Below are positions 24,101 through 54,852 of a stretch of DNA of 64,000 bases, one piece after another. Each line of letters opens with the position of its first letter. Positions within the stretch are counted from its first letter, which is position 1. The notes beneath the pieces were generated by a model. The model was not told the origin of the DNA. It saw nothing but the letters and a program-made list of their open reading frames with translations, and searched no databases. The translations under genes and the position numbers were made by a program. Origin of the DNA: an uncultured Lachnospiraceae bacterium (GTDB lineage Bacteria > Bacillota > Clostridia > Lachnospirales > Lachnospiraceae); assembly GCA_934401915.1 (NCBI GenBank), contig CAKRSV010000003.1:186001-250000 (forward strand), read 5' to 3'.

Positions 24101-26001
24101 GGGTTATTACGCAGAAGAGTGCGAGCATGCTTTACGGCACCAAGAATCAGAAGGGAAAACCGGTGGTTTCGGGCTATCTGGTGCTGAGTTACCAAGGCTA
24201 TAAATCGGATATCAAGACGAAGCTGAAGATCACGATCCCTACGCAGACGGTCAAACCGTCCTACAAGCTGGATAAGACGGCGGATACTTACAACAATGCC
24301 TGTGGAGAACAGACGATCAAACTTCATCTTCTGGATACCAAAAAGAAAAACGAGCCGGTAAATCTGAATGACGGTACGTTTGATGTAAAGGTATGGAACG
24401 GCACGGAGGCAAGGATCAACGAGTGTACGATCACTACGGACGGAGCAGTCGAGATGAAAACTCCCCGAAATATGGAATCGGGAAAAGTCGTGCTTCATGT
24501 GACCAATACAAGCTGGGCTTCCGGACAGTATTTTAATTATACTTACACGATCAAGGCGACGTCAAATACACCGAAGGCGAGCCTGACAGCAGCAACCGTG
24601 ACAATGAACCCGAGTTATCCGGAGCAGGTACAGACGTTTGCGCTGAAATCCAATCAGAAGGATACCGTGTTTGCGGATACGCAGATATTTAACGCAAAAT
24701 CTACGGTAAGGAATGCGGAAGAATATGCGAAGTTAAGCGTCACCTATGAAAATGGGGAAGGAAAAGTTGAGATCCTTGATCCGACAGTAAAAAATGGAAC
24801 ATACACATTTGTGTGTGATAAGGTTAAGCGGGTAAACACCAGAGGCGACGAGGTGGCGATCAACGGTGTGACCCTGAAGGTGAAGGTGGCAAAGGGAGTT
24901 CCGACGGTAGCATTGAAGGGAGCCGCGGCGTTTAATCTGGCAGCGACAGACGAGAGCGATAACTATGTTGAGACGGCAGTTCTGGAAATGACATCCAAGA
25001 ATCTGGCAGAAGGCTATGAGCTTGATGTGGATGAGACGAAAGCTACGATCCGGTGTACTACGAAGAACTATACGGATTCGGCATCTGCCTTTGAGTGGGA
25101 TCTTAATAATGCGGGCTACACGAAGAATGTCTGGGCAGGAAGTCTGGACGTGAAGCTGATCAGAGAACTTCCCAAGAAGAGTTACGCATTTACTATGGAG
25201 CCAGTCTATGAAAACCCGGATACCGGCAATGTGGTAAGAGGCAAAGCGGTTAAATTTACTGTAAAGGTATACAGCGCTTCTATCAGCGTAGGACTTACAG
25301 CGAAGGGAAAACTGAATCTGGTGAACCGTGATTATGCAGAGTATACGGCAAACAACAGTATTATCTATACACCTTCCTTTAAGAATCTTAAGGATAAGGT
25401 TGTAGAAGTCAAGATATTTGACGCGGGCGGTATTCAGCCGAAGTATGATGATGAGGAAAGCGAATTTTTCCAGGCAAAGGTGCTGGCGGATGGCAAGATC
25501 TATGTTTCGCCGAAACGGCAAGCAGAGATCGACAACAATAAGACGTATTCTGTGAAGATCTGGATGAAGCTGAGGGATTATCAGTTTGGTTCGGAGGATG
25601 GCTACGGAACCTGGTCTAATAAGGTGCTGAAGATCAAAACCGCGCAGATCCTTCCTAAGATTAAAACCGACAAGAGTACGGTCAACCTGTATCTCTCCAA
25701 CAAGAATTACGAGACTTCCTTTGTTATAAGCAAGAGTGATGTGAAGGCGATCGGAAGCATCGCAAGTGTTGATTTTGGAAAGGAAGATACCAAGGCTTAT
25801 GATTCGAAAGCAGCCGAATCCTTAGAAATTCGCACGGTTGAGCAGGCGGACGGATCGATGAAGGTGTATCTGAAACCCAAGGATGCGGTCTCTTATAGCT
25901 GTGGATCTACCAATAAGGTCAATATGTACGTAAGATTTGCAGGACAGGGAGCAAATACGGATGGCGTGAAACTTACGATGAACGTCCGGATCAACAAATA
26001 G
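21172..26001 (+). CDS. Large secreted LRR/Ig-like surface protein
   Basis: A 1609-residue exported protein. A signal peptide (MRKKRVLALLLAFSMAVS..., cleavage near VFA at 26) is followed by an acidic Glu/Thr-rich stretch to about 135. BspA-type leucine-rich repeats (about 185-450) recur as GxxAFxGCxxL. Next is a bacterial-repeat-like module with GTKLFVTFQPDQGYK...YSFAMPMG, then a BIG2-like Ig domain (VATIDAGGVIRAVKAGKAEITAS). The remaining ~900 residues look like further beta-sandwich repeats. No LPXTG, SLH or other anchor is visible at the C-terminus (KLTMNVRINK), so attachment is unexplained. BspA-like proteins usually act in adhesion. Confidence 0.85.
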   Translation: MRKKRVLALLLAFSMAVSTNGMTVFATETGTEPVSAVMEAEPEETESADEIEETTPESEDAARENGAEDPEKSGDDATETEDSETETEAPEEDGAENGDAQSEPDTSISEETREDAISDNTVEETEEEIVEEGHEIRLLSFTDETGMRVTYDANAAATYKYTVENGTLTAVTDENGKPLSGVVELAADQNITAIGEAFAGNTAITYVKLPSGVTSINDGAFKGCSSLKGIYLPNTMGTIGASAFESCTKMTQLAIPKNVKSIGARAFVGDTALFMVYMRDADYSSLVSIGDEAFKGCTALSKFCSDDAFVIPGNLETIGSSAFEGCTSIDAVNLNESVTTLGEAAFRNCGSITSVITSSKLTDIPDEAFKGCNNLISLTFKSGNASIGASAFEGCTGLGGIKLLYSIKQVGNYAFRDCSKLLRAEIASGEIVLGDAVFSGCAADLTLIGQRDSNVETYAKNNDIKFVYYLSEEEEEVHYYKYDVFVPGQTPGGKIIVKDAAGKDPNTLNPDSSKKGQGVTAGTKLFVTFQPDQGYKMVTGSLKYNGKVINADKNGVYSFAMPMGGALITAEFESINAGKTLGIDSDISVELSNGATVNSKNEVDGAALKVGQSTRMFLIDGKDGNRAVKTSKITFTSGTTSVATIDAGGVIRAVKAGKAEITASVIGYDDKKIVRSIIVDVTSADVDEIRLKAVDYDAAIVKLTQSSSGSNMAVIDKTETKNKANTFSIKATAYDTEGDDTSVVMKWTSSDTKVAKLETASTTTTKTTNRVTIPQGATGETTITVTATNTSATAAKKTVTQKFVISVVDYTPRLADSSLTLNPNIEKGVALEIISSYGKEIDTDSIKFLKAEDGYASSAFDVKYSEEDSNDVVKTFWVTPKLVNDGATYSLLVSVNGGTYKIPLKITIKKSEPKVKLTLDKKQPKINLFYANDGTEIKPVITGLGTAKIASYALEPLGTDEDAKLFTENFEIDPDTGVITQKSASMLYGTKNQKGKPVVSGYLVLSYQGYKSDIKTKLKITIPTQTVKPSYKLDKTADTYNNACGEQTIKLHLLDTKKKNEPVNLNDGTFDVKVWNGTEARINECTITTDGAVEMKTPRNMESGKVVLHVTNTSWASGQYFNYTYTIKATSNTPKASLTAATVTMNPSYPEQVQTFALKSNQKDTVFADTQIFNAKSTVRNAEEYAKLSVTYENGEGKVEILDPTVKNGTYTFVCDKVKRVNTRGDEVAINGVTLKVKVAKGVPTVALKGAAAFNLAATDESDNYVETAVLEMTSKNLAEGYELDVDETKATIRCTTKNYTDSASAFEWDLNNAGYTKNVWAGSLDVKLIRELPKKSYAFTMEPVYENPDTGNVVRGKAVKFTVKVYSASISVGLTAKGKLNLVNRDYAEYTANNSIIYTPSFKNLKDKVVEVKIFDAGGIQPKYDDEESEFFQAKVLADGKIYVSPKRQAEIDNNKTYSVKIWMKLRDYQFGSEDGYGTWSNKVLKIKTAQILPKIKTDKSTVNLYLSNKNYETSFVISKSDVKAIGSIASVDFGKEDTKAYDSKAAESLEIRTVEQADGSMKVYLKPKDAVSYSCGSTNKVNMYVRFAGQGANTDGVKLTMNVRINK

Positions 26002-37688: not shown

Positions 37689-38636
37689 ATGGGGAAAATA
37701 GACATTCACGCAGATGATTATGCGTTGACGCCAAACACATCGAAAGATATGCTGGAATGTATGCAGGCAGGAAAACTGGACAGTATCAGTATCGTGCCGA
37801 ATACGTCCTGCTTTGAAGAGTGCATGGAGCTGTTGTATGAAAGGATACCGCAGCTCCCGTTTTTGCCAAAAATGTCTGTGCATCTTGACTTCGTGGAAGG
37901 AAGGAGCCTTGCACCGGAGGGAATGACAGAGCTGCTGACAAAGGAAGGAAGCAGTCTGATGGGACTTTCATGGGGAGGCCTGTTCAAGTTGTCCTATCTG
38001 CCGTGGAAGCGGGCTCAGGCCAAAGAACAGCTTAAATGCGAGATCCGGGCGCAGATCCAAAAAGTGCAGGACGCGGTAAAGAAGTGCCGGGAGATTGCAC
38101 AGCAGAGTCAGGTACGAGTGGAACAACAGGGACTCCGCATCGATTCACACCAGCATGCGCATATGATACCGGTGGTGTGGGAAGCTGTCACGGAGGTAGT
38201 GGCGGAAGAAAACTACTCGCTTGAGTATATCCGCAATTCGAAGGAACTCTTATGGCCGTTTGTGTCAAAGGTGTCGCTTTGGAAAACTTACCGCCCGATC
38301 AATTTTGTCAAGAACAGACTGCTTTCCTGCTATTCGCATAAGGCGGACCGCTATTGCAGAGAACATGGGCTGGATCAGATGTATCTGTGGGGGCTGGTTA
38401 TGAGTGGACGCATGGATGCAGACCGGATCGGAAAGCTGTATCCGGCCATTGCCGGAAAGGCAGATAAAAAGGGACGGACGCTCGAGATTCTTTTCCATCC
38501 GGGGGCAACTCTGCCGGATGAAGTGACAGAGGAGATCGGGAAGGAAGCAGCAGAGGATTTTTACCTTACAGAGGGTAGAAAGATCGAATATCAGGCAGTG
38601 ATGAAAGGCGGGTTCAGACAGGATCTTAGCGAATGA
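37689..38636 (+). CDS. ChbG/HpnK (YdjC) family deacetylase
   Basis: A 315-residue metal-dependent deacetylase-fold protein with the motifs IDIHADDYALTP, MSVHLDF and DSHQHAHMIPVV, which hold the metal ligands. Family members remove N-acetyl groups from chitooligosaccharides or lipid-linked sugars. With the GtrB-like gene just upstream, a lipid-linked N-acetyl sugar is a reasonable substrate (inference). Its 3' end overlaps the convergent SGNH gene by 11 bases. Confidence 0.9.
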   Translation: MGKIDIHADDYALTPNTSKDMLECMQAGKLDSISIVPNTSCFEECMELLYERIPQLPFLPKMSVHLDFVEGRSLAPEGMTELLTKEGSSLMGLSWGGLFKLSYLPWKRAQAKEQLKCEIRAQIQKVQDAVKKCREIAQQSQVRVEQQGLRIDSHQHAHMIPVVWEAVTEVVAEENYSLEYIRNSKELLWPFVSKVSLWKTYRPINFVKNRLLSCYSHKADRYCREHGLDQMYLWGLVMSGRMDADRIGKLYPAIAGKADKKGRTLEILFHPGATLPDEVTEEIGKEAAEDFYLTEGRKIEYQAVMKGGFRQDLSE

Positions 38637-39594
38637 TTTGCTGAAGCTCCGGAACCTCCTCTTCCAGAATCTGCATGAAATAAGCAGCTCCCTCGTCGTT
38701 TAGGTGGTCAGAGTCAGAGAAGTAATCCAGGTTGCCACGGAACCTGGCGTCATAGGAATAATCATAATAACTGACACCTGTGTCAGATGCAATGGTATTC
38801 ACCTTCTCGGCAAACTCGGAGAGAAACTCAGCGGATACCAGATCACGATAATACTTCGAAAAGGGAGTGGTGATCAGGACAGGCGTGATGTTGCGTTCTT
38901 TACAGTAGGAGATGATCTCGCGCAGCTCTTCCTCGCGCTCAGGCATGAAATAGGTGTCCTTGTTGGCAAAATGACGATCATAGCGATCCTGTGCGCGCCG
39001 CTGGAACTCGGCAACATCGTCGCCGGTATCGGCGGCGAGAGCGATCAGAGACAGCTTGGGAAACAGCTCGAGGATATCTTCCCCGGCTGACAGGATAGGT
39101 AGCCTTGTGGTGACGATGTCGGTAAAAAGATCGTAATCCGGCATATTCTGAGGAGAAAGACAGTGGTAATATTTAACGCTTAGAGCCTGCGCCTCGCTGT
39201 CGGTCGTTACCTCGTTATTGAAGGAGAAATAAGACACAGGTATAAACAGAACGCTTCCGGGAGCCAGATAGCTCCCGTATTCTTTTAATATCGCATAGTC
39301 GTAATTGAAGGTCTGGCTGACGTTGCCGTAGTTAAAGCAGGAATAGCCGCGTTCCTCCAGATCTGTATATACGAAGTCATAGGCACCATGAGAGCTTCCG
39401 ATGTTGGCAACCTGTATGTTTTCGACCGGATTCCCCAGTGTGCTGAACTTGGCAAGATCCAGGTATTTCGCCTCATCAATTTTTCGGTAGGGCTTGTTGA
39501 GAAGGCAGATCACCAGCAGTGCCGCCGCCGGAAAGGCAAGGCATTTTACGATCAGTTTTATAAAATCCAAAGTCTGTTTTTTATTTTCCTTCAT
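38626..39594 (-). CDS. SGNH/DltD-like acyl-decoration partner protein
   Basis: A 322-residue protein with one N-terminal membrane segment (CLAFPAAALLVICLL) and an extracytoplasmic SGNH-type domain. GSSHG at the nucleophile position (NIGSSHGAYDF) and SDSDHLNDEG near the C-terminus match the catalytic Ser and Asp-His of SGNH esterases and of DltD/AlgX-type proteins. GAGG precedes ATG 39594. It is 20 bases downstream of an MBOAT gene, as in dltB-dltD, suggesting O-acyl transfer to a surface polymer. Confidence 0.85.
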   Translation of the reverse strand: MKENKKQTLDFIKLIVKCLAFPAAALLVICLLNKPYRKIDEAKYLDLAKFSTLGNPVENIQVANIGSSHGAYDFVYTDLEERGYSCFNYGNVSQTFNYDYAILKEYGSYLAPGSVLFIPVSYFSFNNEVTTDSEAQALSVKYYHCLSPQNMPDYDLFTDIVTTRLPILSAGEDILELFPKLSLIALAADTGDDVAEFQRRAQDRYDRHFANKDTYFMPEREEELREIISYCKERNITPVLITTPFSKYYRDLVSAEFLSEFAEKVNTIASDTGVSYYDYSYDARFRGNLDYFSDSDHLNDEGAAYFMQILEEEVPELQQIIR

Positions 39595-39614
39595 ATTCTT
39601 TTACCCCTCGTCAC

Positions 39615-41060
39615 TTAAAACTGGAAATAGATAAATTCGGTTGCGATTCCCTTGTTGGAAAAGAGGGCGATCACGACCAGAAGCAAAACATAGATCAGCC
39701 AGCGTACAAGAAAATTCTGCCTGCTGATCAGGGCGATCACATCCTGCTTGAGAGAGATGTAATCATAAATACCGAGAATGACCACAGAGAAGAACATACC
39801 AAACATGGACACATAGGGCATATCCAGACAGATCACCGCAGTTTTCAGATAGTTGACCGGCCGGGAAGCATCCCAGAACAGTCTGGAGAGGATCCACAGA
39901 GCATCCTGAATGGTGTTTGCACGGAAAAAGATCCAACTGAGGCAAAGCAGAATAAAGGTGATGGGCAGCTGCCACCAGTGCTTTTTGTGAGTAAGCCGGA
40001 TACCGTTTCGCTCTTTGGGGTAGAGAAAAGACTCTACGATCTGCAGAAAACCGTGGATGCCGCCCCACAGGATGTAGGTCAGACTGCTTCCATGCCAGAA
40101 GCCGCTGACCAGAAACGTGATCATCAGGTTCAGACAGTGGCGGAAGCGTCCGACGCGGTTGCCGCCCAGCGGAATGTACACATAGTCACGAAACCAGGTG
40201 GAAAGGGAGATATGCCAACGGCTCCAGAACTCTTTGATCGTAAATGAGTAGTAGGGACTTTTAAAGTTGGTCATAAGCTCAATTCCGAAAAGTCTGGCAC
40301 AGCCGATCGCAATGTCGGAATAGCCGGAAAAATCACAGTAGATCTCAATGGCAAACATAACGGTGACAATGATAAAGACAAGACCGACATAGCTTCCGGC
40401 ATTGTTGTATACCTTATCCACGACGGCAGCAAAGACGTCGGCAATCACCAGTTTTTTAAAATACCCCCACGCCATCTGACGAAGCCCGTAAGTGACGTTC
40501 TCGTAGGAAAAAGGTCGCTCCTTTTTGTATTGCGGAAGCAGGCTGTCCGCTCTGCCGATCGGTCCTGCCAGGAGCTGTGGGAAAAAGGAGACAAACAGTG
40601 CATAATATCCAAAGTGCTTTTCCGCGGGAATCTTCTTCTTGTAAACATCGATGAGATAGCCCATTGACTGAAAAAAATAAAAGGAGACGCCGGCAGGGAG
40701 AAGGATCCGCACGGTGATGGGCTGCATCGGAAGCCGGCCTGCGTCGATCAGGACATTCAGACGGTCGATCAGAGGCGAAGCCGTCTTATAGAACAGCAGG
40801 ATCAATACCAGAGGGAGAATACCGCCAAGGAGACAGCTGCGCCGCCCGGTATCTGCTGTACAGTTTTCCAGCTTTCTGGCAAGAAAGTAGGTAAGAACGG
40901 TCGTCAGAAAGAGCAGGATCCCATACCCGACATGCAGATTCATATAGAAGACATAGCTTGCCACCAGCAAAAAAATCCAACGGTACTTGTGCGGAAGCGC
41001 ATAGTACAGAAGAAAGACAACTGGCAGAAATATGGCAAAGGTCATGGAATTAAATAGCAT
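39615..41060 (-). CDS. MBOAT family O-acyltransferase
   Basis: A 481-residue multipass protein. Family signatures are QLLAGPIGRADSLLPQ, EFWSRWHISLSTWFRDYVYIPLGGNR and NLMITFLVSGFWHGSSL, with the catalytic-type His in GGIHGFLQ. It moves acyl groups across the membrane onto polysaccharide. GGAG before ATG 41060 and the family N-terminus (LFNSMTFAIFLPVVFLLYY) set the start. It forms a two-gene unit with the SGNH gene under its own promoter. Confidence 0.95.
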   Translation of the reverse strand: MLFNSMTFAIFLPVVFLLYYALPHKYRWIFLLVASYVFYMNLHVGYGILLFLTTVLTYFLARKLENCTADTGRRSCLLGGILPLVLILLFYKTASPLIDRLNVLIDAGRLPMQPITVRILLPAGVSFYFFQSMGYLIDVYKKKIPAEKHFGYYALFVSFFPQLLAGPIGRADSLLPQYKKERPFSYENVTYGLRQMAWGYFKKLVIADVFAAVVDKVYNNAGSYVGLVFIIVTVMFAIEIYCDFSGYSDIAIGCARLFGIELMTNFKSPYYSFTIKEFWSRWHISLSTWFRDYVYIPLGGNRVGRFRHCLNLMITFLVSGFWHGSSLTYILWGGIHGFLQIVESFLYPKERNGIRLTHKKHWWQLPITFILLCLSWIFFRANTIQDALWILSRLFWDASRPVNYLKTAVICLDMPYVSMFGMFFSVVILGIYDYISLKQDVIALISRQNFLVRWLIYVLLLVVIALFSNKGIATEFIYFQF

Positions 41061-41122
41061 AGTTTCTCCGTTCCGGAGCTCTCGCGGCTCCCTGCTGGAA
41101 TCTGATTTCCAAAGATAGTAAC

Positions 41123-41151
41123 AGTTTAGCACAAAGTCCGGAATTAAACAA
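41123..41151 (-). promoter_or_regulatory. Promoter of the MBOAT-SGNH unit
   Basis: Minus strand TTGTTT (41151-41146), 17 bp, TAAACT (41128-41123) with extended TGC. The predicted start is near 41116, 56 nt before the ATG. Confidence 0.65.
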
Positions 41152-41205
41152 TTCATGGAGAAGTCGAAAGATCGCCCGGTATAGGAGCTTATATGGCAAT
41201 GCAGA

Positions 41206-41235
41206 TTGCCAAAAGCATACCAATGATGGTAAAAT
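41206..41235 (+). promoter_or_regulatory. Promoter of the multipass protein at 41347
   Basis: TTGCCA (41206-41211), 18 bp, TAAAAT (41230-41235) with TGG before the -10. Confidence 0.6.
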
Positions 41236-41346
41236 ATGTGAGAACAAATTTCGGGAAAACCACAGAGATTCCGGATAGAGCGATGCGGGCTCAAGAGTTG
41301 AGTACGTGCAAAGAGAAATGCTGGTACGAGGGAGTAACTGGAAAAG

Positions 41347-42961: not shown

Positions 42962-44497
42962 ATGGGTATTACTTCTTTTACATTTATCTGTTTTTTTGCA
43001 GGGATACTGATACTGTACTATCTGATCCCGAAAAAGCTGCAGTGGGGATTTCTGCTTCTGTGCAGCGTTGCCTACTATCTGTTATCGGGAAATGGATTTC
43101 TGATCTTATATCCCCTGTTTTCTGTGACGGCGTGCTATGCAGGGACAAGGCTTTTTTTGAACACACCGGAAGAGCAGACCGGGCGCAGAAGAGCGATCCT
43201 CTGGCTGACGATCGCGGCAAATCTGGGCGTGCTGGTGGTGCTCAAATATGTAAATTTCGGTATTTATACCATAGACGGGATCGCAAAGCTGTTTGGCAGT
43301 TCGGAGGAACTGATAAGAAGTGTGGATTTCATGGTGCCGCTGGGGGTATCGTTTTATACGTTCTCCCTGCTTGGATATGTGATCGATGTGTACAATGGGA
43401 TTGCGATCCCACAGAAAAACTATGCAAAGCTGGCGTTGTATGGGATGTATTTCCCTGTGATCCTGTCGGGACCTATTTTGAAGTACCGGGAGCATGGAGA
43501 GCAGTTCTTCTTGCCGCATCCATTTTGCTATGCAAAAGTGACGCGCGGTCTGCAGCGGATGCTGTGGGGCTTCTTTAAGAAGCTGGTGATCGCGGAGCGG
43601 CTGGGAACGCTGGTGGATACGGTTTACGGGCAGTATGGAGAGTATCCGGGCGCATATATCTGGTTTGCGACCGTGTGCTATGCGTTCCAGCTCTACACGG
43701 ACTTTTCAGGTGGTATGGATATCGTACTCGGCATTTCGGAAAGTTTCGGGATCGACCTGCCGGAAAATTTCGAGACGCCCTTTTTCGCGAAGAGTATCTC
43801 AGAATACTGGCGCAGATGGCATATTACGCTCGGTGTATGGATGAAAGAGTATGTATTCTATCCAGTGCTGAGAACGAAGGCGTTTACGAAGCTGAATAAA
43901 AAGTGGAAAGAAAAGTTTGGGAAGAAAAAGGGAAAGCAGTATACCACATTTGCAGCAATGTTTATCCTGTGGTTTACGGTGGGCGTGTGGCATGGAGGCG
44001 ACTGGAAGTATGTGATCGGCTCCGGACTGCTGCACTGGTGCTACATCGTGCTGGAGGAACTGCTTGCAGCACCCTGCGCACGCGCGATGGACAGGATGCA
44101 TATCCGTGCCGATGGCAAGGGCATCGCCGTGGTCCGTGTGCTCCGGACCTTTTTCCTGGTATGCATCGGAGATCTTTTTTTTCGGGCAGCATCCGTCGGG
44201 GATGCGTTTGCCATGCTGGCAAAGGCAGTCGCAGTGTGGAATCCGCAGATTTTATGGAACGGAGCTCTTTTGAATCTGGGGCTGGAGCCGGAGGAGCTGC
44301 TGATCGCGCTGGTGTCGCTTCTGATCCTGTGGTTGGTATCGTGTCTGCAGCAGAAGGAATCGGTACGGGAGAGAATTGGCAGGAAACCGCTTCCGGTTCG
44401 CTGGGTCATCTGGTATGCGCTTTTATTCTACGTGATCCTGCTCGGCTGTTATGGACCAGGGTACAGCGCATCGGAGTTTATCTATCAGGGATTTTAG
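42962..44497 (+). CDS. MBOAT family O-acyltransferase
   Basis: A 511-residue multipass acyltransferase, second of its kind here. Motifs: VPLGVSFYTFSLLGYVIDVYNG, MYFPVILSGPILKYRE, EYWRRWHITLGVWMKEYVFYP and WFTVGVWHGGDW, with LLHW at the catalytic His position. Distinct from the one at 39615, so probably a different acyl group or acceptor. No SGNH partner is adjacent; the nearest are at 47749 and 60667. It may transfer the acyl group held by the carrier protein at 52631. Confidence 0.95.
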   Translation: MGITSFTFICFFAGILILYYLIPKKLQWGFLLLCSVAYYLLSGNGFLILYPLFSVTACYAGTRLFLNTPEEQTGRRRAILWLTIAANLGVLVVLKYVNFGIYTIDGIAKLFGSSEELIRSVDFMVPLGVSFYTFSLLGYVIDVYNGIAIPQKNYAKLALYGMYFPVILSGPILKYREHGEQFFLPHPFCYAKVTRGLQRMLWGFFKKLVIAERLGTLVDTVYGQYGEYPGAYIWFATVCYAFQLYTDFSGGMDIVLGISESFGIDLPENFETPFFAKSISEYWRRWHITLGVWMKEYVFYPVLRTKAFTKLNKKWKEKFGKKKGKQYTTFAAMFILWFTVGVWHGGDWKYVIGSGLLHWCYIVLEELLAAPCARAMDRMHIRADGKGIAVVRVLRTFFLVCIGDLFFRAASVGDAFAMLAKAVAVWNPQILWNGALLNLGLEPEELLIALVSLLILWLVSCLQQKESVRERIGRKPLPVRWVIWYALLFYVILLGCYGPGYSASEFIYQGF

Positions 44498-47599: not shown

Positions 47600-47682
47600 G
47601 GCTGTACGGGGGGAGGATGTCTTAAAAAGTTATGAATGTTTCCTTAATTCTTGGGCGAACGGGATACAAACCGGTAAAATTG

Positions 47683-47691
47683 TGCTATGAT
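47683..47691 (+). promoter_or_regulatory. Extended -10 promoter of the SGNH gene
   Basis: TGCTATGAT, an extended -10, with no clear -35. If used, transcription starts near 47698, which excludes the in-frame ATG at 47632 as a start. Confidence 0.5.
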
Positions 47692-47748
47692 ATCGTCAGA
47701 AAGCAGGTCTGTCTGAACACCGGCGGACTGGGAAAGGCGTGGTTATCA

Positions 47749-48909
47749 ATGATGGAACAGAGAAATCAAAAAAGAAGCAGCAGATACAACAGCAGAGTTC
47801 TTCTGCTGGCAGTTCTTGTCGGGTTCTGTATTCTGGCGCTGATTGAGATCATATATGGACAGAGACAGATAAAGCTCGAAAAGGAAAGGATCGCTCTTGA
47901 GCAGGACAATCAGCAGAAAATGCAGGAGCTTCAGGAGCGGTGGGACGCTCTGGATACGGCTTCGCAGGAGTCTGCGGATGAGGCGCAGACGGATCAGACG
48001 GCCTCGGCGAACAAGACGTCGGAACCGGATGTAGATACCAGTAAATTCACAAATTCAGAGCCGCAGCAGAGCACGGAAAGCGCGGAACAGGAGCAGCCGG
48101 TGGGAACCTCCACGGTCAAAAAAGGCGAGACGGCGACGATGGATGAAAAGCAGTATGATATGCAGATCGTCTTTATGGGCGACAGCATCCTTGACAATGA
48201 CAGGGAGGACGGCGGCGTGGCGTCCCTGGTCAGCGACGGCTGCAATGCCAGAGTGTACAACATGGCGATCGGCGGTACGACAGCGGCACTGACGACTTAT
48301 CAGAAATATGATTTTAACGACTGGCAGTCCTCGGGACTTCTGGGAATCGTCAATGGGATCCTGGGAAATATCCCTCCGTCCTATTTTGAAGGGAAACAGG
48401 CAGAATGGATCCTGGAAGAGTGTGATTTCAGCAAGACGGACTATTTCGTGATCGAGTACGGGATCAACGATTTCCTTTCGGGTCAGATTCCGCAGAGCCG
48501 TTACCTGGCAGATGGATCGACCCTTGCAGTAGACGATGTGCACACGTATTCAGGGGCGCTTTCAACGGCGGTGACTCTTTTGCAGAATAATTTCCCGAAT
48601 GCCAAGATCCTGCTGATCGCACCGCACTATTGTCAGATCTTCAGCGGGAATACCTTTATCGGCGATGGCTATTCGGTAAATTACGGTTACGGAGCGCTGG
48701 TAGAGTTTGCGAGATGCGCCGGTTACGTGTATGAGCAGAACAAGGATAAGAATGTACTGTTCTTCAATGCGTTCGAGGAGAGCGGCATCAATGCGGAGAC
48801 GGCAGATAAGTATCTGCTGGACGGGATCCATCTGAACCCCGAGGGCAGGAGGATCTATGCAGATTATGTGATACGGCTGATCAAAGCGGATTTCTATCCG
48901 GAAGAGTAG
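47749..48909 (+). CDS. Membrane-anchored SGNH/GDSL hydrolase
   Basis: A 386-residue protein: one membrane segment near residues 15-35 (VLLLAVLVGFCILALI), a coiled-coil and Gln/Ser/Glu-rich linker to ~125, and an extracytoplasmic SGNH domain with IVFMGDSILDN (catalytic Ser), VIEYGINDF and DGIHLNPEGRR (catalytic Asp-His). Such proteins remove or transfer acyl groups on surface glycans. Directly upstream of the FkbH-like gene, so it could act with that acyl pathway. Start chosen from promoter position; the ribosome site is weak. Confidence 0.85.
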   Translation: MMEQRNQKRSSRYNSRVLLLAVLVGFCILALIEIIYGQRQIKLEKERIALEQDNQQKMQELQERWDALDTASQESADEAQTDQTASANKTSEPDVDTSKFTNSEPQQSTESAEQEQPVGTSTVKKGETATMDEKQYDMQIVFMGDSILDNDREDGGVASLVSDGCNARVYNMAIGGTTAALTTYQKYDFNDWQSSGLLGIVNGILGNIPPSYFEGKQAEWILEECDFSKTDYFVIEYGINDFLSGQIPQSRYLADGSTLAVDDVHTYSGALSTAVTLLQNNFPNAKILLIAPHYCQIFSGNTFIGDGYSVNYGYGALVEFARCAGYVYEQNKDKNVLFFNAFEESGINAETADKYLLDGIHLNPEGRRIYADYVIRLIKADFYPEE

Positions 48910-49019: not shown

Positions 49020-50879
49020 GTGATGCAGGAACTACAGTATCCGTTTGACAGTGAATATCTTTTAAAAAAATCGAAGAAGATCAGGAGACAGCTTCTGGAG
49101 GGAAATAACAATTTCCTTCATAAGAAGATTGCGGTTCTGGGGGGGAGCACGACCCATGACATCATCCGGATGCTGGAGTTATTCCTTCTGGATCAGGGAA
49201 TTCAGGCGGAGTTTTACGAGTCCGAGTACGGACAGTACTGGCAGGATGCGATGTTTGGAAATCCGGAGCTGGATCAGTTTGAGCCGGATCTGATCTTTGT
49301 GCACACTTCGAACCGGAATATCACCGCCTATCCGGCGCCCGGCGATCCGGAGGAGAAGATCGAAGCGATGCTCGGGGAGCAGTATGCGCATTTTGAGACG
49401 ATGTGGGGCAAGCTGGAACAGACCTTTCACTGTCCGATCGTGCAGAACAATTTCGAATATCCCTTTTATCGTATTCTGGGGAATCAGGATGCGGCGGATA
49501 TGCACGGAAGGATTCATTTTATCAATCACCTGAATGAAAAGTTTTATGAATATGCGGGGAAACATGAAGCGTTCTATATCAACGATATGAACTATGTGGC
49601 GGCAGCATACGGGCTGGACAAATGGGCCGATCCGTTTTACTGGCATATGTACAAGTATGCGATGTGCATGCAGGCGATTCCTTCGTTTGCTTTTAATGTT
49701 TCCAATATTATCAAGGCAATCTTTGGAAAGAACAAAAAATCGCTGGTGCTGGATCTGGATAATACGCTCTGGGGCGGCATCGTGGGAGACGACGGGGTAG
49801 AAAATCTGGAGATCGGACAGGAAACCTCCATGGGCCAGGTCTATCTGGAGTTTCAGAATTATGTCAAGGCGCAGAAGGATCTCGGCGTTATGCTGAATGT
49901 GGATTCCAAGAACGAATACGATAATGCGGTGGCGGGGCTGAATCACCCGGACGGAGCGCTGAAGCCGGAAGACTTTATTCTGATCAAGGCGAACTGGGAT
50001 CCCAAGAGCAAAAATATAGCGGATATCGCAGCAGAACTGAATATTCTGCCGGACAGTCTGGTGTTTGTAGATGACAATCCGGCGGAGCGGGAGATCATCC
50101 GTGCGCAGGTGCCGGGGGTGGCGGTGCCGGAGATCGGAACGCCGGAGCAGTATATCCGGATTCTGGATCATTCCGGATTCTTTGAAGTGACACATCTGTC
50201 AGAAGACGATCAGAAGCGAAATGAAATGTACAAGGCCAATATCCAGCGGAAGAAACAGCAGGAGAGCTTTGGAGACTACCGGGAATATCTGCTTTCTCTG
50301 GAGATGCGCGCCGTGATCAAATCTTTTGAACCGCTTTATATGGCGCGTATTGCGCAGCTGACGAACAAGAGCAATCAGTTTAACCTTACGACAAGAAGAT
50401 ATACGCAGAGCGATATTGAAGGATTTGCAGCGGATAACGATTACATCACTCTGTACGGGAAGCTGGAGGACAAATTTGGAGACAACGGCGTGGTCAGCGT
50501 GGTGATCGGCAAAAAGGGAACCATGGAGGACGTCCCGGCTTATCTGGAGCAGGGGAGCGCGGCAAGGACGGACGCGGAGAAAAAGGTGCTGCATCTGGAG
50601 CTTTGGCTGATGAGCTGCCGTGTATTGAAGCGCGATATGGAATTTGCCATGATGGACGGCGTGGTGAAGCGCTGTATCGAGTGCGGTCTGGACACGATCA
50701 TGGGATATTATTATCCGACAGCCAAAAACGCGATGGTCAGAGAGTTTTATGCGGCACAGGGATTCGAGAAAGTGCAGGAGACGGAAGACGGGATCAGCGT
50801 ATGGAAATTCCAGATCCCGGAAAACTATAAGAATAAGAATGAAGTGATCCGGTGTGACGGAGAGAATGAGGTAGAGTAA
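49020..50879 (+). CDS. FkbH-like HAD-IIIC/GNAT enzyme
   Basis: A 619-residue three-domain protein. The N-terminal part (1-235) has VLGGSTTHDI, an SGNH-like fold. The HAD domain has the nucleophile in SLVLDLDNTLWGG (Asp245) and VDDNPAERE (350). The C-terminal part (~430-600) is a GNAT-type acyltransferase with IAQLTNKSNQFNLTTRRY. Characterised FkbH enzymes dephosphorylate 1,3-bisphosphoglycerate and load glyceryl onto an acyl carrier protein. The carrier gene lies 1.75 kb downstream. AAGGAG fits GTG 49020 (8 bases) or ATG 49023. Confidence 0.93.
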   Translation: MMQELQYPFDSEYLLKKSKKIRRQLLEGNNNFLHKKIAVLGGSTTHDIIRMLELFLLDQGIQAEFYESEYGQYWQDAMFGNPELDQFEPDLIFVHTSNRNITAYPAPGDPEEKIEAMLGEQYAHFETMWGKLEQTFHCPIVQNNFEYPFYRILGNQDAADMHGRIHFINHLNEKFYEYAGKHEAFYINDMNYVAAAYGLDKWADPFYWHMYKYAMCMQAIPSFAFNVSNIIKAIFGKNKKSLVLDLDNTLWGGIVGDDGVENLEIGQETSMGQVYLEFQNYVKAQKDLGVMLNVDSKNEYDNAVAGLNHPDGALKPEDFILIKANWDPKSKNIADIAAELNILPDSLVFVDDNPAEREIIRAQVPGVAVPEIGTPEQYIRILDHSGFFEVTHLSEDDQKRNEMYKANIQRKKQQESFGDYREYLLSLEMRAVIKSFEPLYMARIAQLTNKSNQFNLTTRRYTQSDIEGFAADNDYITLYGKLEDKFGDNGVVSVVIGKKGTMEDVPAYLEQGSAARTDAEKKVLHLELWLMSCRVLKRDMEFAMMDGVVKRCIECGLDTIMGYYYPTAKNAMVREFYAAQGFEKVQETEDGISVWKFQIPENYKNKNEVIRCDGENEVE

Positions 50880-50882
50880 GCG

Positions 50883-52583
50883 ATGCTGACGGTACTGATT
50901 AGTTGGGGCTATATGTTTCTTCTCTGTATGATCCTTGGAATGGGGATCCTGAAGCTCATGCAGAAGCTGCTGGGAAGGGACGCACACCCGGGGAAGAAAG
51001 CGTACGGCGTTACCGATATGGTGATGGCTGGTATTCTTGGCGTCACGGTATACACGGAATATGTTAGTCTGTTTGGAAAAATTGGTATGGCCGCCCAGTT
51101 GGGCATGCTGGCGCTCGGACTTTGCTCCATGTGGCTGACGAGACAGGAACTCGCAGCGCTGCTCCAAAAAATGGGAAAAGAGATGATAAGCTGGGAGGGC
51201 TTATTCTATCTGGGATTCTTGCTCTTTCTGGCCTTTTTTACATCCAGAGGAGAGTTTCATACGGACACCAATATTTATCATGCGCAGGCGATCAGGATGT
51301 ATGAGGAATATGGTGTGCTCAAGGGAAGCGGAAACCTGCAGCTCCATTATGGCTACAACAGTGCAGGGCTGGCGTTCTCTGCCTTTTTCAGCCTGAACTG
51401 GCTGCTCGGTGCGCCGCTGCATACGACGACAGGGTTTCTGGAGGCGGTGCTTGGGATCTATGCCTTTCATGGACTGAAAGATTTCCGGATCCACACAAAG
51501 CATAAGGCGGATATGATGCGGGTCGGGATCCTGTTTTATATTCTGATCATTCTGGTCAGAAGTATGTCGCCTGCTACGGACTACAGTACGATGCTCCTCA
51601 CCTTTTATGTGCTGACTGCATGGTGCGTCGAGCTGGAAGGGACAAAAGCAGTGGAAAATTACGCCCTTTTGTCAGTGTATGCGGTGCTGCTGATAACCTA
51701 CAAGTTTTCTGCCTGTTTTCTGGTGCTGCTGGCAGTGTACCCTGCGGTGTGCCTGATCCGTAAGCGCAAATGGCAGCAGATCGGCATTTTGATCCTCTGT
51801 GGCGTTCTGGTGCTTGCCCCTTTTCTGATCCGCAATTATCTGATCTCGGGGTGGCTGCTGTATCCCTTCGGAGGGATCGATCTGTTTCATCCGGTCTGGA
51901 AAGTGCCCAGAGAGTATCTGCAGGTGGACGCTGACCAGATCAAGGTGTGGGGGCGGTGCCTGTTTGATATAAAAAAGACGGATGCGCCGCTTAGCGAATG
52001 GCTTCCGGTATGGTGGAGCGACAAGGAGCGGTACGAGCAGATGTTTCTTGGCAGCGTAGGAATCGGAGCGGTTCTTTTGCTGGCACAGTTCGTAAGGAGA
52101 AGGCTTCGCAGAGAAAAGTGGGATCTGGCTTATGCAGCTTTCCTGCTTGCCGTTGCGGCAAATCTGCTTACCTGGTTTTTCATGGCGCCCTTTATCCGGT
52201 ACGGGCTGGCTTTCCTGCTCGCGGTTCCGCTTCTGGCAGTTGGCGTGTGGCTGGAAGAATCCAGAAAGGGCTTTTACAGTATCCTGAGCGGGTGTCTGCT
52301 GTTTGGGATCGTGATCACCCTCAGCGCATACTGGCAGCCGTATATTACCTATGCCGGCGTTTTTGTGAAACAGAATTTCCGCCAGCCGTATTACCTTACC
52401 CAGCAGGAATATGACCGGGGTGAGGTGGGAAGCCTTGAAATCAACGGAAATACGATATATTATAACAGCGGAACGGAAGAGATCAACAGCTATTATTATT
52501 TCCCAAACACATGTTATGGGTGGATGCTGGAGAGAAGTACGCTGATCGGGGATCGGATAGAGGACGGTTTCCGTGCAAAATAA
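50883..52583 (+). CDS. Multipass membrane protein (resembles LIC_10190 family)
   Basis: A 566-residue protein with about 12 membrane segments. FHTDTNIYHAQAIRMYEEYG and NLQLHYGYNSAG after the fourth segment form the conserved extracytoplasmic motif of this family. The final ~60 residues are soluble. No function is established. Its start lies four bases after the FkbH-like gene and the carrier protein gene follows, so it belongs to the same operon. Confidence 0.7.
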   Translation: MLTVLISWGYMFLLCMILGMGILKLMQKLLGRDAHPGKKAYGVTDMVMAGILGVTVYTEYVSLFGKIGMAAQLGMLALGLCSMWLTRQELAALLQKMGKEMISWEGLFYLGFLLFLAFFTSRGEFHTDTNIYHAQAIRMYEEYGVLKGSGNLQLHYGYNSAGLAFSAFFSLNWLLGAPLHTTTGFLEAVLGIYAFHGLKDFRIHTKHKADMMRVGILFYILIILVRSMSPATDYSTMLLTFYVLTAWCVELEGTKAVENYALLSVYAVLLITYKFSACFLVLLAVYPAVCLIRKRKWQQIGILILCGVLVLAPFLIRNYLISGWLLYPFGGIDLFHPVWKVPREYLQVDADQIKVWGRCLFDIKKTDAPLSEWLPVWWSDKERYEQMFLGSVGIGAVLLLAQFVRRRLRREKWDLAYAAFLLAVAANLLTWFFMAPFIRYGLAFLLAVPLLAVGVWLEESRKGFYSILSGCLLFGIVITLSAYWQPYITYAGVFVKQNFRQPYYLTQQEYDRGEVGSLEINGNTIYYNSGTEEINSYYYFPNTCYGWMLERSTLIGDRIEDGFRAK

Positions 52584-52630
52584 ACAGAAAAGAAGAACAG
52601 CCTTTATAAGGCGGTCAGAATGGAGGAAAA

Positions 52631-52873
52631 ATGAGCAGAGAAGAAGTATTTGAGAAATTGAACGAGGTATTCCGGGATGTATTCGACGATGAGTCGATCA
52701 CCGTGACAGATGCGACGACAGCAAACGATATTGACGACTGGGATTCGCTGGAGCATATCAATCTGCTTGCGGCGATCGAGCAGGAGTTTGGAATGAAGTT
52801 CAACATGGGGCAGGTCGTTTCCATGAAGAATGTGGGCGAGATGGCGGATATTATTATCAGCAAGATCGGCTGA
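52631..52873 (+). CDS. Acyl carrier protein
   Basis: An 80-residue acidic carrier with the phosphopantetheine site in DDWDSLEHINLLAAIEQ (Ser39). GGAGG just before the ATG. It is not next to fatty acid synthesis genes but follows the FkbH-like gene, so it is likely a dedicated carrier for a hydroxyacyl group, possibly glyceryl, used to decorate the polysaccharide. It is the analogue of DltC in teichoic acid D-alanylation. Confidence 0.95.
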   Translation: MSREEVFEKLNEVFRDVFDDESITVTDATTANDIDDWDSLEHINLLAAIEQEFGMKFNMGQVVSMKNVGEMADIIISKIG

Positions 52874-52905
52874 TCCGGATAGAATATGGGAGCCATTGAG
52901 AGGGA

Positions 52906-54447
52906 ATGATGACAGAAAAGATAATAAATGGGATCCATAGAGGGTATCAACGCCTGGAAAATATGGGGAAGAAGAGAGAGGCCGTCTGCGTATGGCTTTT
53001 CTTTGCTGTCCTGGTATTCGGCGTCGTGACGTTCAAAGGGACGTTGACTTCCGGCTTTCATCTCGTGGATGACTGGGAATTTGCCAAGTATCAGAACTGG
53101 ATGCAGCTTGAGGGACAGAGCCTGTGGGACTGCCTGCGGCAGGCTGTCGGTTATGATCTGACCATGCGTTTTCGTCCTCTGTACTATATTAACAGGGTGC
53201 TGATGACGGCGGTCTTTGGAATAAATCTGACAGCGATGTCAGTTGTGAAGGCGATGGAGATCGTCATTGCGATGGCGGCGCTCTATTATTGTGCACGCAG
53301 GCTGAAATGCAATCCGGTCTACGCGCTTCTCTTTTCGCTTACCGTTATGGTCGGCTATCAGTCGCCTGTGTGGTGGAAGCTGGGACCGCAGGAATCCTAT
53401 GATATCATGATGTTTGCCATCGGCTTTTATTTTCTGCTGCGCTGGCTGCAGGAGAAACGGAAGAGGGACGCGGTGATCAGCATTGCTTCGCTGATCCTGA
53501 TGTCGATCTATAAAGAGCCTTTTATCCTGCTGCTGCCGTTTGTATGCCTGTTTGTGGTATGGCAGGATATGCAGGGAAAGAAAGTCACAGTAAAAAGCCT
53601 GTGGGAAGCGGTCAGAGGCAGGCTGCCGTATCTGCTGACGCTTGTGCTGGTGTTTGTCGCAGAAATGTTTCTGCTGGTGTTTGTGATCGGAACAAACAAT
53701 TACGATTATGTGGGTATGGACAGCAGTCTGACGCTGGCTGACTATAAAAGGATATGGCTGGATACGGCAGGTGCTGATCTGAAGTGGTATGTCCGTTTCG
53801 GGATCCTCATGGGGCTGATCCTGCTCACGTATTGGGAACAGGTGAAAAAACTGGGCTGGGAGCTTCTGCTGACAGTGGCTGTTATTCTGCCGCAGTGCGT
53901 TTCCTACAGTAAGACGGGGATCGCGGAACGGTATCTTCTGCCCTGTATTGTGGGATATGCTTTTTTCTTTGTAATTGTCGGATGCAATTTCAGACCGCTT
54001 TCCGGGAAAAGGAGGATCCTGTATGTGCTCTGCCTGCTTCTGATGCTGGCGGCGCATGGGCGCGTGGCGCTTCGGGAGGCGGAATATTTTGCCTATCGGG
54101 GAGAAAGCGTAAAGACGGCGATGGAGGACACGCTGGAGCTTGTCCGGGGAACGGACAAAAAGGTGTTGTCCTGCTTCTATCCGAATCTGGAGGCGAACCG
54201 GACGATGTACTACTGGTTCCGGCTGAAAGGCTATGATGAATTTTTCTACTGGGAAGAGGAACGACAGATCATTACCAGAGAGTTTGGAGAGCGTGAGGAC
54301 GAGACGGCCAGCCTTGATGAGATGGACGTTATTCTTATGTACAACGAGGAGGACCGGCACTGGTGTTATACGCCGAGTCTGGATCTGTCAGGATTTACGG
54401 AATATAAATGCGGTACGATCACGATGTATGTGCGGGATGGAGCCTGA
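52906..54447 (+). CDS. Multipass membrane protein, GT-C-like
   Basis: A 513-residue protein. After the first helix (AVCVWLFFAVLVFGVVTF) comes the loop FHLVDDWEFAKYQNWMQLEG with an Asp-Asp motif, then about ten membrane segments and a soluble tail of ~110 residues. This matches the GT-C pattern also seen at 45700. GAGGG precedes ATG 52906. It follows the carrier gene by 32 bases. Function unproven. Confidence 0.7.
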   Translation: MMTEKIINGIHRGYQRLENMGKKREAVCVWLFFAVLVFGVVTFKGTLTSGFHLVDDWEFAKYQNWMQLEGQSLWDCLRQAVGYDLTMRFRPLYYINRVLMTAVFGINLTAMSVVKAMEIVIAMAALYYCARRLKCNPVYALLFSLTVMVGYQSPVWWKLGPQESYDIMMFAIGFYFLLRWLQEKRKRDAVISIASLILMSIYKEPFILLLPFVCLFVVWQDMQGKKVTVKSLWEAVRGRLPYLLTLVLVFVAEMFLLVFVIGTNNYDYVGMDSSLTLADYKRIWLDTAGADLKWYVRFGILMGLILLTYWEQVKKLGWELLLTVAVILPQCVSYSKTGIAERYLLPCIVGYAFFFVIVGCNFRPLSGKRRILYVLCLLLMLAAHGRVALREAEYFAYRGESVKTAMEDTLELVRGTDKKVLSCFYPNLEANRTMYYWFRLKGYDEFFYWEEERQIITREFGEREDETASLDEMDVILMYNEEDRHWCYTPSLDLSGFTEYKCGTITMYVRDGA

Positions 54448-54456
54448 TCCGTCAGG

Positions 54457-54852
54457 TCAGCGGATCAGCTCGATCATTCCCATGGCGGCGTGGTTCAGAA
54501 AGACGACCTGCCGGTTTCCCAATGCGGGCGCGGGGGTCAGTTCGTCGATCGCGAGAAAGCCGTTCGCGGTAAGGTCTGCATAGTCCTTGTCAAAGTCAGA
54601 CGTCTCATAACAGATGTGGTAGGGCGTATTTTTATAGCGTTTCATCAGCCCGGCAACCACAGAATCCTCCGAGACGGGGGATACCAGTTCGACACGGTAG
54701 CCATCCTTTGTCAGGAAGCAGATGTCGACTTTGCGGATATCGTCGTAGAGCGTATCCTGTTCGATGGTGTATCCGAGATTCAGAAAGGACTGCTTTGCCT
54801 TTTCTATTTTTTTTACAAGATAACCGATGTGGTGTACGGTAAGGGATTTCAT
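54457..54852 (-). CDS. VOC (glyoxalase/methylmalonyl-epimerase-like) protein
   Basis: A 131-residue metal-site fold starting MKSLTVHHIGYLVKKIEKAKQSF, with VDICFLTKDGYRVELVSP and HICYETSDFDKDY, giving the usual His and Glu ligand positions. AGGAG seven bases before ATG 54852 sets the start. Reaction unknown; relatives epimerise or isomerise small acyl groups. It lies inside the FkbH-carrier region on the opposite strand, so a role in acyl-group processing is possible but unproven. Confidence 0.85.
   Translation of the reverse strand: MKSLTVHHIGYLVKKIEKAKQSFLNLGYTIEQDTLYDDIRKVDICFLTKDGYRVELVSPVSEDSVVAGLMKRYKNTPYHICYETSDFDKDYADLTANGFLAIDELTPAPALGNRQVVFLNHAAMGMIELIR

Follow-up and report, generated by a model that had tools for sequence, protein, structure and literature searches.

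Among the closest described systems, Dlt (DltA, DltC, DltB, DltX and DltD) combines a carrier-protein donor, an MBOAT protein, a tyrosine acyl-shuttle motif and an SGNH acceptor enzyme, and PatA/PatB and AlgI/AlgJ O-acetylation joins an SGNH partner to an MBOAT with a fused C-terminal FXYXXF motif, drawing on acyl-coenzyme A (acyl-CoA). In the sections available of one account of these pathways (PMC12148441), the tyrosine of that motif, at the MBOAT C terminus or on DltX, carries the acyl group to the SGNH protein, and the authors state that MBOAT–SGNH pathways other than Dlt have no carrier protein like DltC. FkbH enzymes have been at home elsewhere, in the tetronate and methoxymalonyl glycerate-utilisation operons, where FkbH is accompanied by a stand-alone acyl carrier protein (ACP). 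What, then, are an FkbH and an ACP doing close to an MBOAT and an SGNH protein in a 64-kb stretch of DNA from an uncultured Lachnospiraceae bacterium (contig CAKRSV010000003.1, positions 186,001 to 250,000; "the window" below, always at its full length)? We argue that they are probably parts of a Dlt-like transmembrane acylation pathway that is charged by FkbH. The argument is built on the parts, their motifs, their linkage and the phylogeny of the MBOAT; for the identity of the acyl group, the role of a nearby VOC protein, the SGNH partner and the acceptor, we can offer proposals.

The window also differs from the described systems. Where Dlt has DltA, the window has FkbH, and the shuttle motif is fused to the MBOAT, with no DltX; where PatA and its kind use acyl-CoA, the window offers a carrier. 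It shares with the tetronate and methoxymalonyl operons FkbH, the ACP and a series of motif blocks that includes the SCR cysteine, yet it has no FabH-like or dehydrogenase partners and instead has an MBOAT and an SGNH protein in a glycan context.

Is this neighbourhood more than an accident? Relatives were compared in two samples, one of 80 loci picked by FkbH likeness and the other of 150 genomes drawn evenly from the same family, in which FkbH exceeded its cut-off (TIGR01686, 146.65 bits) in 29 genomes at 30 places; 29 of these places form the denominator, one (L130, a truncated frame) being unscored by our own FkbH profile. FkbH has an ACP no more than 4 kb away at 76 of the 80 picked and 25 of the 29 sampled loci and an MBOAT within 7 kb at 53 (61 if 10.5 kb is allowed) and 17, respectively; up to 10 kb away, where the flanks reach that far, a DltA-like ligase was found at none of the 80 and none of the 29. 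(L130 itself has a ligase-like frame of 1376 residues.) Chance was considered as an explanation and rejected: the 154 MBOAT matches in the 29 genomes with FkbH, each about 3.3 Mb in size, predict that roughly 0.7 of 30 sites would have an MBOAT 7 kb away or less, against 17 seen, in an estimate that ignores the clustering of glycan genes. The original prediction had called for just such a survey of FkbH, ACP and MBOAT or SGNH genes occurring without DltA, and the counts speak in its favour; it had also allowed that FkbH and ACP might turn up mainly with polyketide or fatty-acid genes, and in this lineage they do not. That FkbH and ACP would feed the window MBOAT is, on this comparative evidence, well supported and in our view highly probable.

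Within the window, the ACP profile has a single match (at 52631), whose Ser39 would be the expected phosphopantetheine site. No DltA-like frame was found when one true DltA was compared by phmmer with all frames of the 64 kb (E 0.1), and the ACP itself matches the DltC of a true Dlt operon with just 14 bits. True DltB (TIGR04091, cut-off 375 bits) and true DltA exceed their cut-offs in six and four, respectively, of the 150 genomes, and a single one of these genomes (G083) is also an FkbH genome.

The MBOAT has the WHG histidine motif and a FIYQGF C terminus; its 139.2 bits against TIGR04091 fall below the DltB cut-off, and its PDB sequence matches are to DltB alone. Among window frames of at least 45 codons, F-[ILVMA]-Y-x-x-F ends occur in two MBOATs and nowhere else, so that no separate DltX was seen. 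From its sequence, it is an MBOAT of the tyrosine-shuttle kind, for which acylation of the tyrosine and hand-over to an SGNH serine are predicted. By comparison, five Dlt operons, true or nearly so, have an MBOAT without the motif, and four of the five (L141–L144) have a small open reading frame (ORF) that ends in FVYSQF, FIYSQF, FVYTQF or FTYAAF. Untruncated MBOATs on the FkbH strand and within 6.6 kb of it end in F-x-Y-x-x-F in 65 of 70 cases, 44 of these being FIYQGF, a hexapeptide that is found in 9 of 30 MBOATs farther off in FkbH loci, in 0 of 11 on the opposite strand, in 0 of 5 in loci with a ligase and in 0 of 27 in other loci. An exact FIYQGF followed by a stop occurs eight times in the 150 genomes, six times near FkbH, and the reversed control pattern does not occur; the match in G025, where there is no MBOAT, was treated as chance.

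A clue to how such a system might have arisen comes from the MBOAT trees. In a tree of 112 MBOATs, from which the C-terminal motif had been removed, 37 rows, including that of the window, form a clade (Shimodaira–Hasegawa-like approximate likelihood-ratio test, SH-aLRT, 99) in which every row comes from an FkbH locus, 33 on the same strand as FkbH within 6.6 kb, three farther away and one on the opposite strand; the second MBOATs that many FkbH loci possess fall elsewhere. The rows had been gathered largely via FkbH, and we therefore ran the test in reverse, starting from the MBOATs of the 150 genomes. When these are ranked by likeness to the window MBOAT, the first six (811–446 bits) all lie within 7 kb of an FkbH, and at rank seven the score drops to 388 bits. 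Of the best 30 (one per genome), the clade (24 rows, SH-aLRT 99) takes in eight, and FkbH is present in all eight of these genomes vs. 6 of the 22 others (probability about 5e-4 by our own arithmetic).

The MBOATs next in rank keep different company. Fourteen of their loci were fetched (L239–L252), and 11 have a DltA-like adenylating (AMP) ligase, each with a carrier-like frame of 75–85 residues (10 recognised by a weak phmmer match to DltC of 14–28 bits, 1 by eye); L247 and L249 have neither ligase nor carrier, and L248 has a carrier only. These operons resemble the window in their related fused-motif MBOATs and, at 13 of the 14 loci, in an adjoining SGNH-like protein that matches the profile of c16, a cluster of our own definition that is MBOAT-adjacent in many relatives; c16 has no Pfam match, and we call it SGNH-like because of a GSS motif and weak cross-matches with a DltD-like profile. 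They differ in being charged by an adenylating ligase and in the FIYNQF or FIYAQF with which 9 of the 14 MBOATs end. The MBOATs that lie closest to the FkbH clade in the trees are those linked to a ligase. Because that clade sits among MBOATs of ligase–carrier operons, the simplest reading is that FkbH and its ACP replaced a ligase and its carrier on an existing MBOAT–SGNH chassis, and the trees fit the earlier suggestion that FkbH takes the place of DltA.

The ligase-type operons deserve notice of their own: L239–L252, L150 and L173, all from Lachnospiraceae, represent an arrangement of AMP ligase, DltC-like carrier, fused-motif MBOAT and SGNH-like protein that is unlike true Dlt, and in L150, L173 and L251, there is also an ORF of about 390–400 residues that resembles, by eye, a pyridoxal-phosphate decarboxylase or racemase.

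In some relatives, the FkbH–ACP pair stands beside Pfk-, DnaX- and RecR-like genes with no MBOAT in reach. All nine of the lone-pair genomes that were searched have a window-like MBOAT (E 1e-60) elsewhere. Eight of these MBOAT loci were fetched; one (L268) has a ligase, and the other seven consist of an MBOAT ending in FIYGRF and a c16-type protein, with no ligase or carrier seen. The tree places all seven MBOATs within the FkbH clade (36 rows, SH-aLRT 100).

The window FkbH looks full-length, with CATALYTICALLY intact. Its AlphaFold model (predicted local distance difference test 83; predicted template modelling score 0.62) matches 3slr over the N-terminal and HAD part (TMt 0.86), and the remaining 49 matches listed are mostly GNAT acetyltransferases. 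C138 and C533 are the only cysteines that are invariant across 79 FkbH sequences (that of the window included); C533 is also invariant in 26 of 26 rows of another alignment, and it is the only one of the two that 10 distant FkbHs retain, which suggests that C533 may carry the acyl group. (The cysteine of CSKN was rejected as the catalytic one, its position being variable across the 79, with Asn, Asp, Ala and Cys the most frequent residues.) The blocks DLDxTLW, SKN, DDxPxER, NQFN, FGD and SCR are common to the window protein and tetronate-type FkbHs from Streptomyces, Methylosinus and Pseudalkalibacillus. By analogy, it would be a glyceryl-ACP synthase that loads from 1,3-bisphosphoglycerate, and homology makes it likely, if by no means assured, that the acyl group is glyceryl or derived from glyceryl.

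Two further proteins would complete the pathway. The closest solved structures of the VOC protein are entries named glyoxalase I or lactoylglutathione lyase, and H51, E98, H122 and E171 (numbered in the 174-residue frame) are invariant in 57 VOCs; a VOC gene lies within 5.5 kb of FkbH at 43 of the 80 picked and 10 of the 29 sampled loci. The protein stays below the cut-off for methylmalonyl-CoA epimerase (TIGR03081, 52.9 bits vs. 114.95), and in the PDB, glyoxalase I is closer. Both glyoxalase I, whose product is a lactoyl thioester, and methylmalonyl-CoA epimerase perform chemistry at a carbon that adjoins a thioester or a hemithioacetal, and it is for this reason that we hypothesise C2 chemistry on a 2-hydroxyacyl-ACP, perhaps a D-to-L inversion, for the VOC protein. 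The SGNH protein at 47632 matches Lipase_GDSL_2, with GDS and DGIH catalytic blocks by eye, and has no match in NCBIfam, the DltD family (TIGR04092, cut-off 150 bits) included; from its position, it is the likely final transferase. SGNH profile matches occur within 5 kb of FkbH at 35 of the 80 and 3 of the 29 loci.

Put together, the pathway might run as follows. FkbH would take a phosphorylated three-carbon hydroxyacid, most likely the glycolytic intermediate D-1,3-bisphosphoglycerate, and move its acyl group, probably via Cys533 of the GNAT domain, while the HAD domain would remove the phosphate; the dedicated ACP would thus be loaded as glyceryl-S-ACP. The VOC protein may act on C2, by inversion or some other adjustment, as long as the acyl group is held as a thioester, and the MBOAT at 42962 would take the acyl group off the ACP and through the membrane to the tyrosine of its own FIYQGF. 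From there, an SGNH protein (that at 47632, or the c16 protein in many relatives) would pass it to a surface glycan that is built by the glycosyltransferase cluster around these genes. In short, FkbH and ACP would stand in for the DltA-like AMP ligase and DltC-like carrier of the related operons.

How well does this hold up against other explanations? The same route could deliver something other than glyceryl, lactyl or another hydroxyacyl group made by extra enzymes on the ACP. This overlaps with our own proposal, and we consider it rather unlikely as the final outcome here. MaoC-profile genes, mostly with SDR genes, adjoin FkbH–ACP in some relatives, and the VOC protein resembles glyoxalase I; against this, neither MaoC nor SDR profiles match anything near the window FkbH (34 kb searched), and the FkbH motif blocks fit the glyceryl-ACP types. 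As for those relatives, L120, L132, L133, L140 and L196 have FkbH–ACP followed by MaoC-profile genes and, except in L133, by SDR-profile genes, whose products could turn glyceryl-ACP into its pyruvyl and lactyl counterparts; MaoC-profile genes are near FkbH–ACP at 6 of the 80 and 4 of the 29 loci.

Alternatively, FkbH and ACP could supply a cytoplasmic N- or O-acyltransferase that works on a nucleotide sugar, with the MBOAT and SGNH proteins performing ordinary acetyl-CoA acetylation and linked to them merely as fellow glycan genes. Some FkbH–ACP pairs do keep such company, either an aminotransferase-like cluster (DegT-type by eye) without an MBOAT (L111, L116, L113 and L128) or a WcbI-like gene or nonulosonate genes. 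However, this explanation is at odds with the position of the FkbH-linked MBOAT clade amid MBOATs of carrier operons, with the clade MBOAT kept in trans by genomes with a lone FkbH–ACP pair (seven of eight fetched) and with similar modules in Alphaproteobacteria, and we judge it unlikely. That FkbH and ACP make a secondary metabolite, a tetronate or a methoxymalonyl polyketide, is very improbable and largely refuted at this locus: FkbH is described in such pathways (PMC7489565, in the passages available), and ketosynthases accompany relatives in Streptomyces, Methylosinus and Pseudalkalibacillus, yet Pfam finds no ketosynthase or nonribosomal peptide synthetase domain among the 40 window proteins scanned, and glycosyltransferases and membrane glycan enzymes surround FkbH.

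The proposal of an FkbH-charged, Dlt-like pathway also has points against it, and they should be set out. An MBOAT is absent within 7 kb of 12 of the 29 sampled FkbH genes (3 of the 12 on contigs shorter than 6 kb), and the 17 sites with one divide into 8 in the clade, 8 outside and 1 (L118, at a contig end) that is unplaced. Twenty same-strand, FkbH-near MBOAT rows, including those of Sinorhizobium meliloti, Rhodobacteraceae and Tistrella, lie outside the clade, and all of the MBOAT trees are supported by SH-aLRT alone. Window-like MBOATs at E 1e-60 are common (85 of the 150 genomes), so that for genomes with a lone FkbH–ACP pair, just clade placement counts. SGNH profiles within 7 kb of FkbH, found at 57 of the 80 picked loci, are found at only 9 of the 29 sampled ones, and several SGNH genes are rivals for the partner role. 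The window MBOAT ends 4.5 kb upstream of FkbH, with intervening genes, one of them on the opposite strand, and the VOC gene is also on the strand opposite to FkbH. FIYQGF is not exclusive (G082 has it next to an AMP ligase), the Rhodobacteraceae MBOAT ends in FIYFNF, and Campylobacter jejuni PatA, an acetyl transferase, ends in FIYSSF (PMC12148441, in the part available). The last of these means that the residue after the tyrosine is no universal code. We had considered that this residue might read the acyl group and rejected the idea: there is a trend within Lachnospiraceae (FkbH often goes with Q and a ligase with N or A, F being seen elsewhere) and no general rule, the exceptions being FIYEKF and FIYEQF in two ligase operons, the C. 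jejuni PatA and G082 ends and the FIYGRF of the trans group. As far as the sequences go, the residue is usable as a lineage marker only.

Similar modules are found well beyond the family. A Rhodobacteraceae plasmid has, in order, ACP, FkbH, MBOAT, a hypothetical protein (its GSS motif, read by eye, is SGNH-like), VOC and an acyltransferase; pSymB of S. meliloti has VOC, MBOAT (ending in FLYQGF), an SGNH-like protein, ACP and FkbH, with capsule genes about 9 kb on; and Tistrella has MBOAT, ACP and FkbH in close proximity. FkbH is matched in 40 Sinorhizobium plasmid records, two of which were inspected. The S. meliloti SGNH-like protein (L202, 12768–13997), which has GGST and DPGH blocks by eye and reaches 42 bits with the profile in a sister record, is annotated as a TonB-dependent receptor, likely a misannotation. 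FkbH-like or HAD-IIIC proteins are also named from Sphingomonas and Erythrobacter, as is one Novosphingobium protein. By our counts, the module is rarer outside Lachnospiraceae: among 348 Bacillota genomes, FkbH exceeds the cut-off in 13, at 14 sites (one being G001, already counted), and the 13 sites fetched include 2 with an MBOAT (L189 and L191) and 3 with a ligase-like frame (L186, L192 and L191, the last at 47 bits), the FkbH of L193 lying within a frame of more than 2000 residues. That the parts act together, which the original prediction had offered as inference, is now backed by synteny, phylogeny, the fused acyl-shuttle motif and occurrence in more than one phylum.

By its gene content, the locus (Table 1) is a Lachnospiraceae-type glycan locus. 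The closest FkbH matches in named genomes (76–77% identity) are from Lachnospiraceae, and the region from 31 to 61 kb encodes several glycosyltransferases and both a dehydrogenase and an epimerase for UDP-sugars, as well as GtrA and membrane proteins of GT-C-like type. The genes named in the original prediction are all at or near their predicted positions: the MBOAT placed at 42962 is there (42962–44497; PF03062, 55.6 bits), and the SGNH gene placed at 47749 is real, with its start at 47632 (47632–48909). The VOC gene, which had been predicted to share one block with FkbH and the ACP, is on the minus strand and therefore outside any FkbH–ACP operon.

Table 1. Positions in the 64-kb window of the proposed acylation module and of genes beside it
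Feature	Position	Strand	Evidence or remark
DltD-like SGNH, partner of second MBOAT	38626..39594	-	PF04914 3.1e-5; TIGR04092 24 bits (cut-off 150)
Second MBOAT, end FIYFQF	39615..41294	-	PF03062 4.7e-26; outside FkbH-linked clade (tree)
MBOAT	42962..44497	+	PF03062 55.6 bits, 6.9e-15; TIGR04091 139.2 bits; PDB DltB 6bug 8e-24; WHG His motif; FkbH-linked clade
Acyl-shuttle hexapeptide FIYQGF, MBOAT C terminus	44477..44494	+	Sequence
GT2	44634		Between MBOAT and SGNH
Opposite-strand gene	45700m	-	Between MBOAT and SGNH
Membrane-anchored SGNH protein	47632..48909	+	PF13472 (Lipase_GDSL_2) 41.4 bits, 2.8e-10; GDS / GIND / DGIH blocks by eye
FkbH (N-terminal domain + HAD phosphatase + C-terminal GNAT fold)	49020..50879	+	TIGR01686 252.9 bits, 4.2e-75; PF21211
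LIC_10190-family membrane protein, between FkbH and ACP	50883..52583	+	NF047510 5e-84
Acyl carrier protein	52631..52873	+	PF00550 (PP-binding); best PDB match 2lml 8e-21; Ser39 in WDSL
GT-C-like protein	52906		Same direction as FkbH, membrane protein and ACP
VOC isomerase-like protein	54457..54852	-	PF13669 64.7 bits; TIGR03081 52.9 bits (below cut-off); PDB glyoxalase I 3hdp 7.5e-31

The LIC_10190-family protein at 50883, a homologue of which is present in 1 of the 80 picked loci, is probably a glycan enzyme outside the core module. From there to 61758, the window has several large membrane proteins, GT-C-like or unassigned (NF047510, PMT_2, DUF6044 and 54941), and GtrA, together with a further SGNH protein (60667) and a protein of the radical SAM/SPASM type (59643); a BspA-type leucine-rich-repeat protein of 1609 residues (21172–26001) is encoded upstream of the glycan locus. 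The same locus holds a second MBOAT (FIYFQF) with a DltD-like SGNH protein of its own (38626–41294, minus strand), apparently a separate pathway whose acyl group is probably another one, which suggests that the glycan bears two different acyl groups.

We found no report in the open literature searched that ties FkbH to O-antigen or, with an ACP and an MBOAT, to polysaccharide, or that ties HAD-IIIC proteins to MBOATs or, with an ACP, to lipopolysaccharide; for FkbH with MBOAT, the matches listed concern the suomilide and aeruginosin peptides. Taking everything together, we tentatively propose, as an idea somewhat less likely to be right than wrong, that there is a phylum-spanning third feed for MBOAT–SGNH acylation, in which FkbH captures the acyl phosphate of 1,3-bisphosphoglycerate directly and needs neither CoA nor a ligase that consumes ATP, a VOC protein sets the C2 stereochemistry on the carrier and glyceryl leaves by way of the MBOAT tyrosine.

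To our knowledge, the enzymes behind the glyceryl groups of gellan have not been identified. If the pathway is what we think it is, it would be a second charging chemistry for carrier-protein-dependent envelope acylation, would link the decoration of the cell surface directly with an intermediate of glycolysis and would extend FkbH beyond natural-product biology, and its genes would be concrete candidates for the glyceryl decoration of bacterial glycans. Orthologous modules could then supply glyceryl esters of bacterial polysaccharides, such as the L-glycerate at C-2 in gellan (PMC9104527, in the part available), and, with a similar module on pSymB of the genetically tractable S. meliloti, these ideas can be put to the test.

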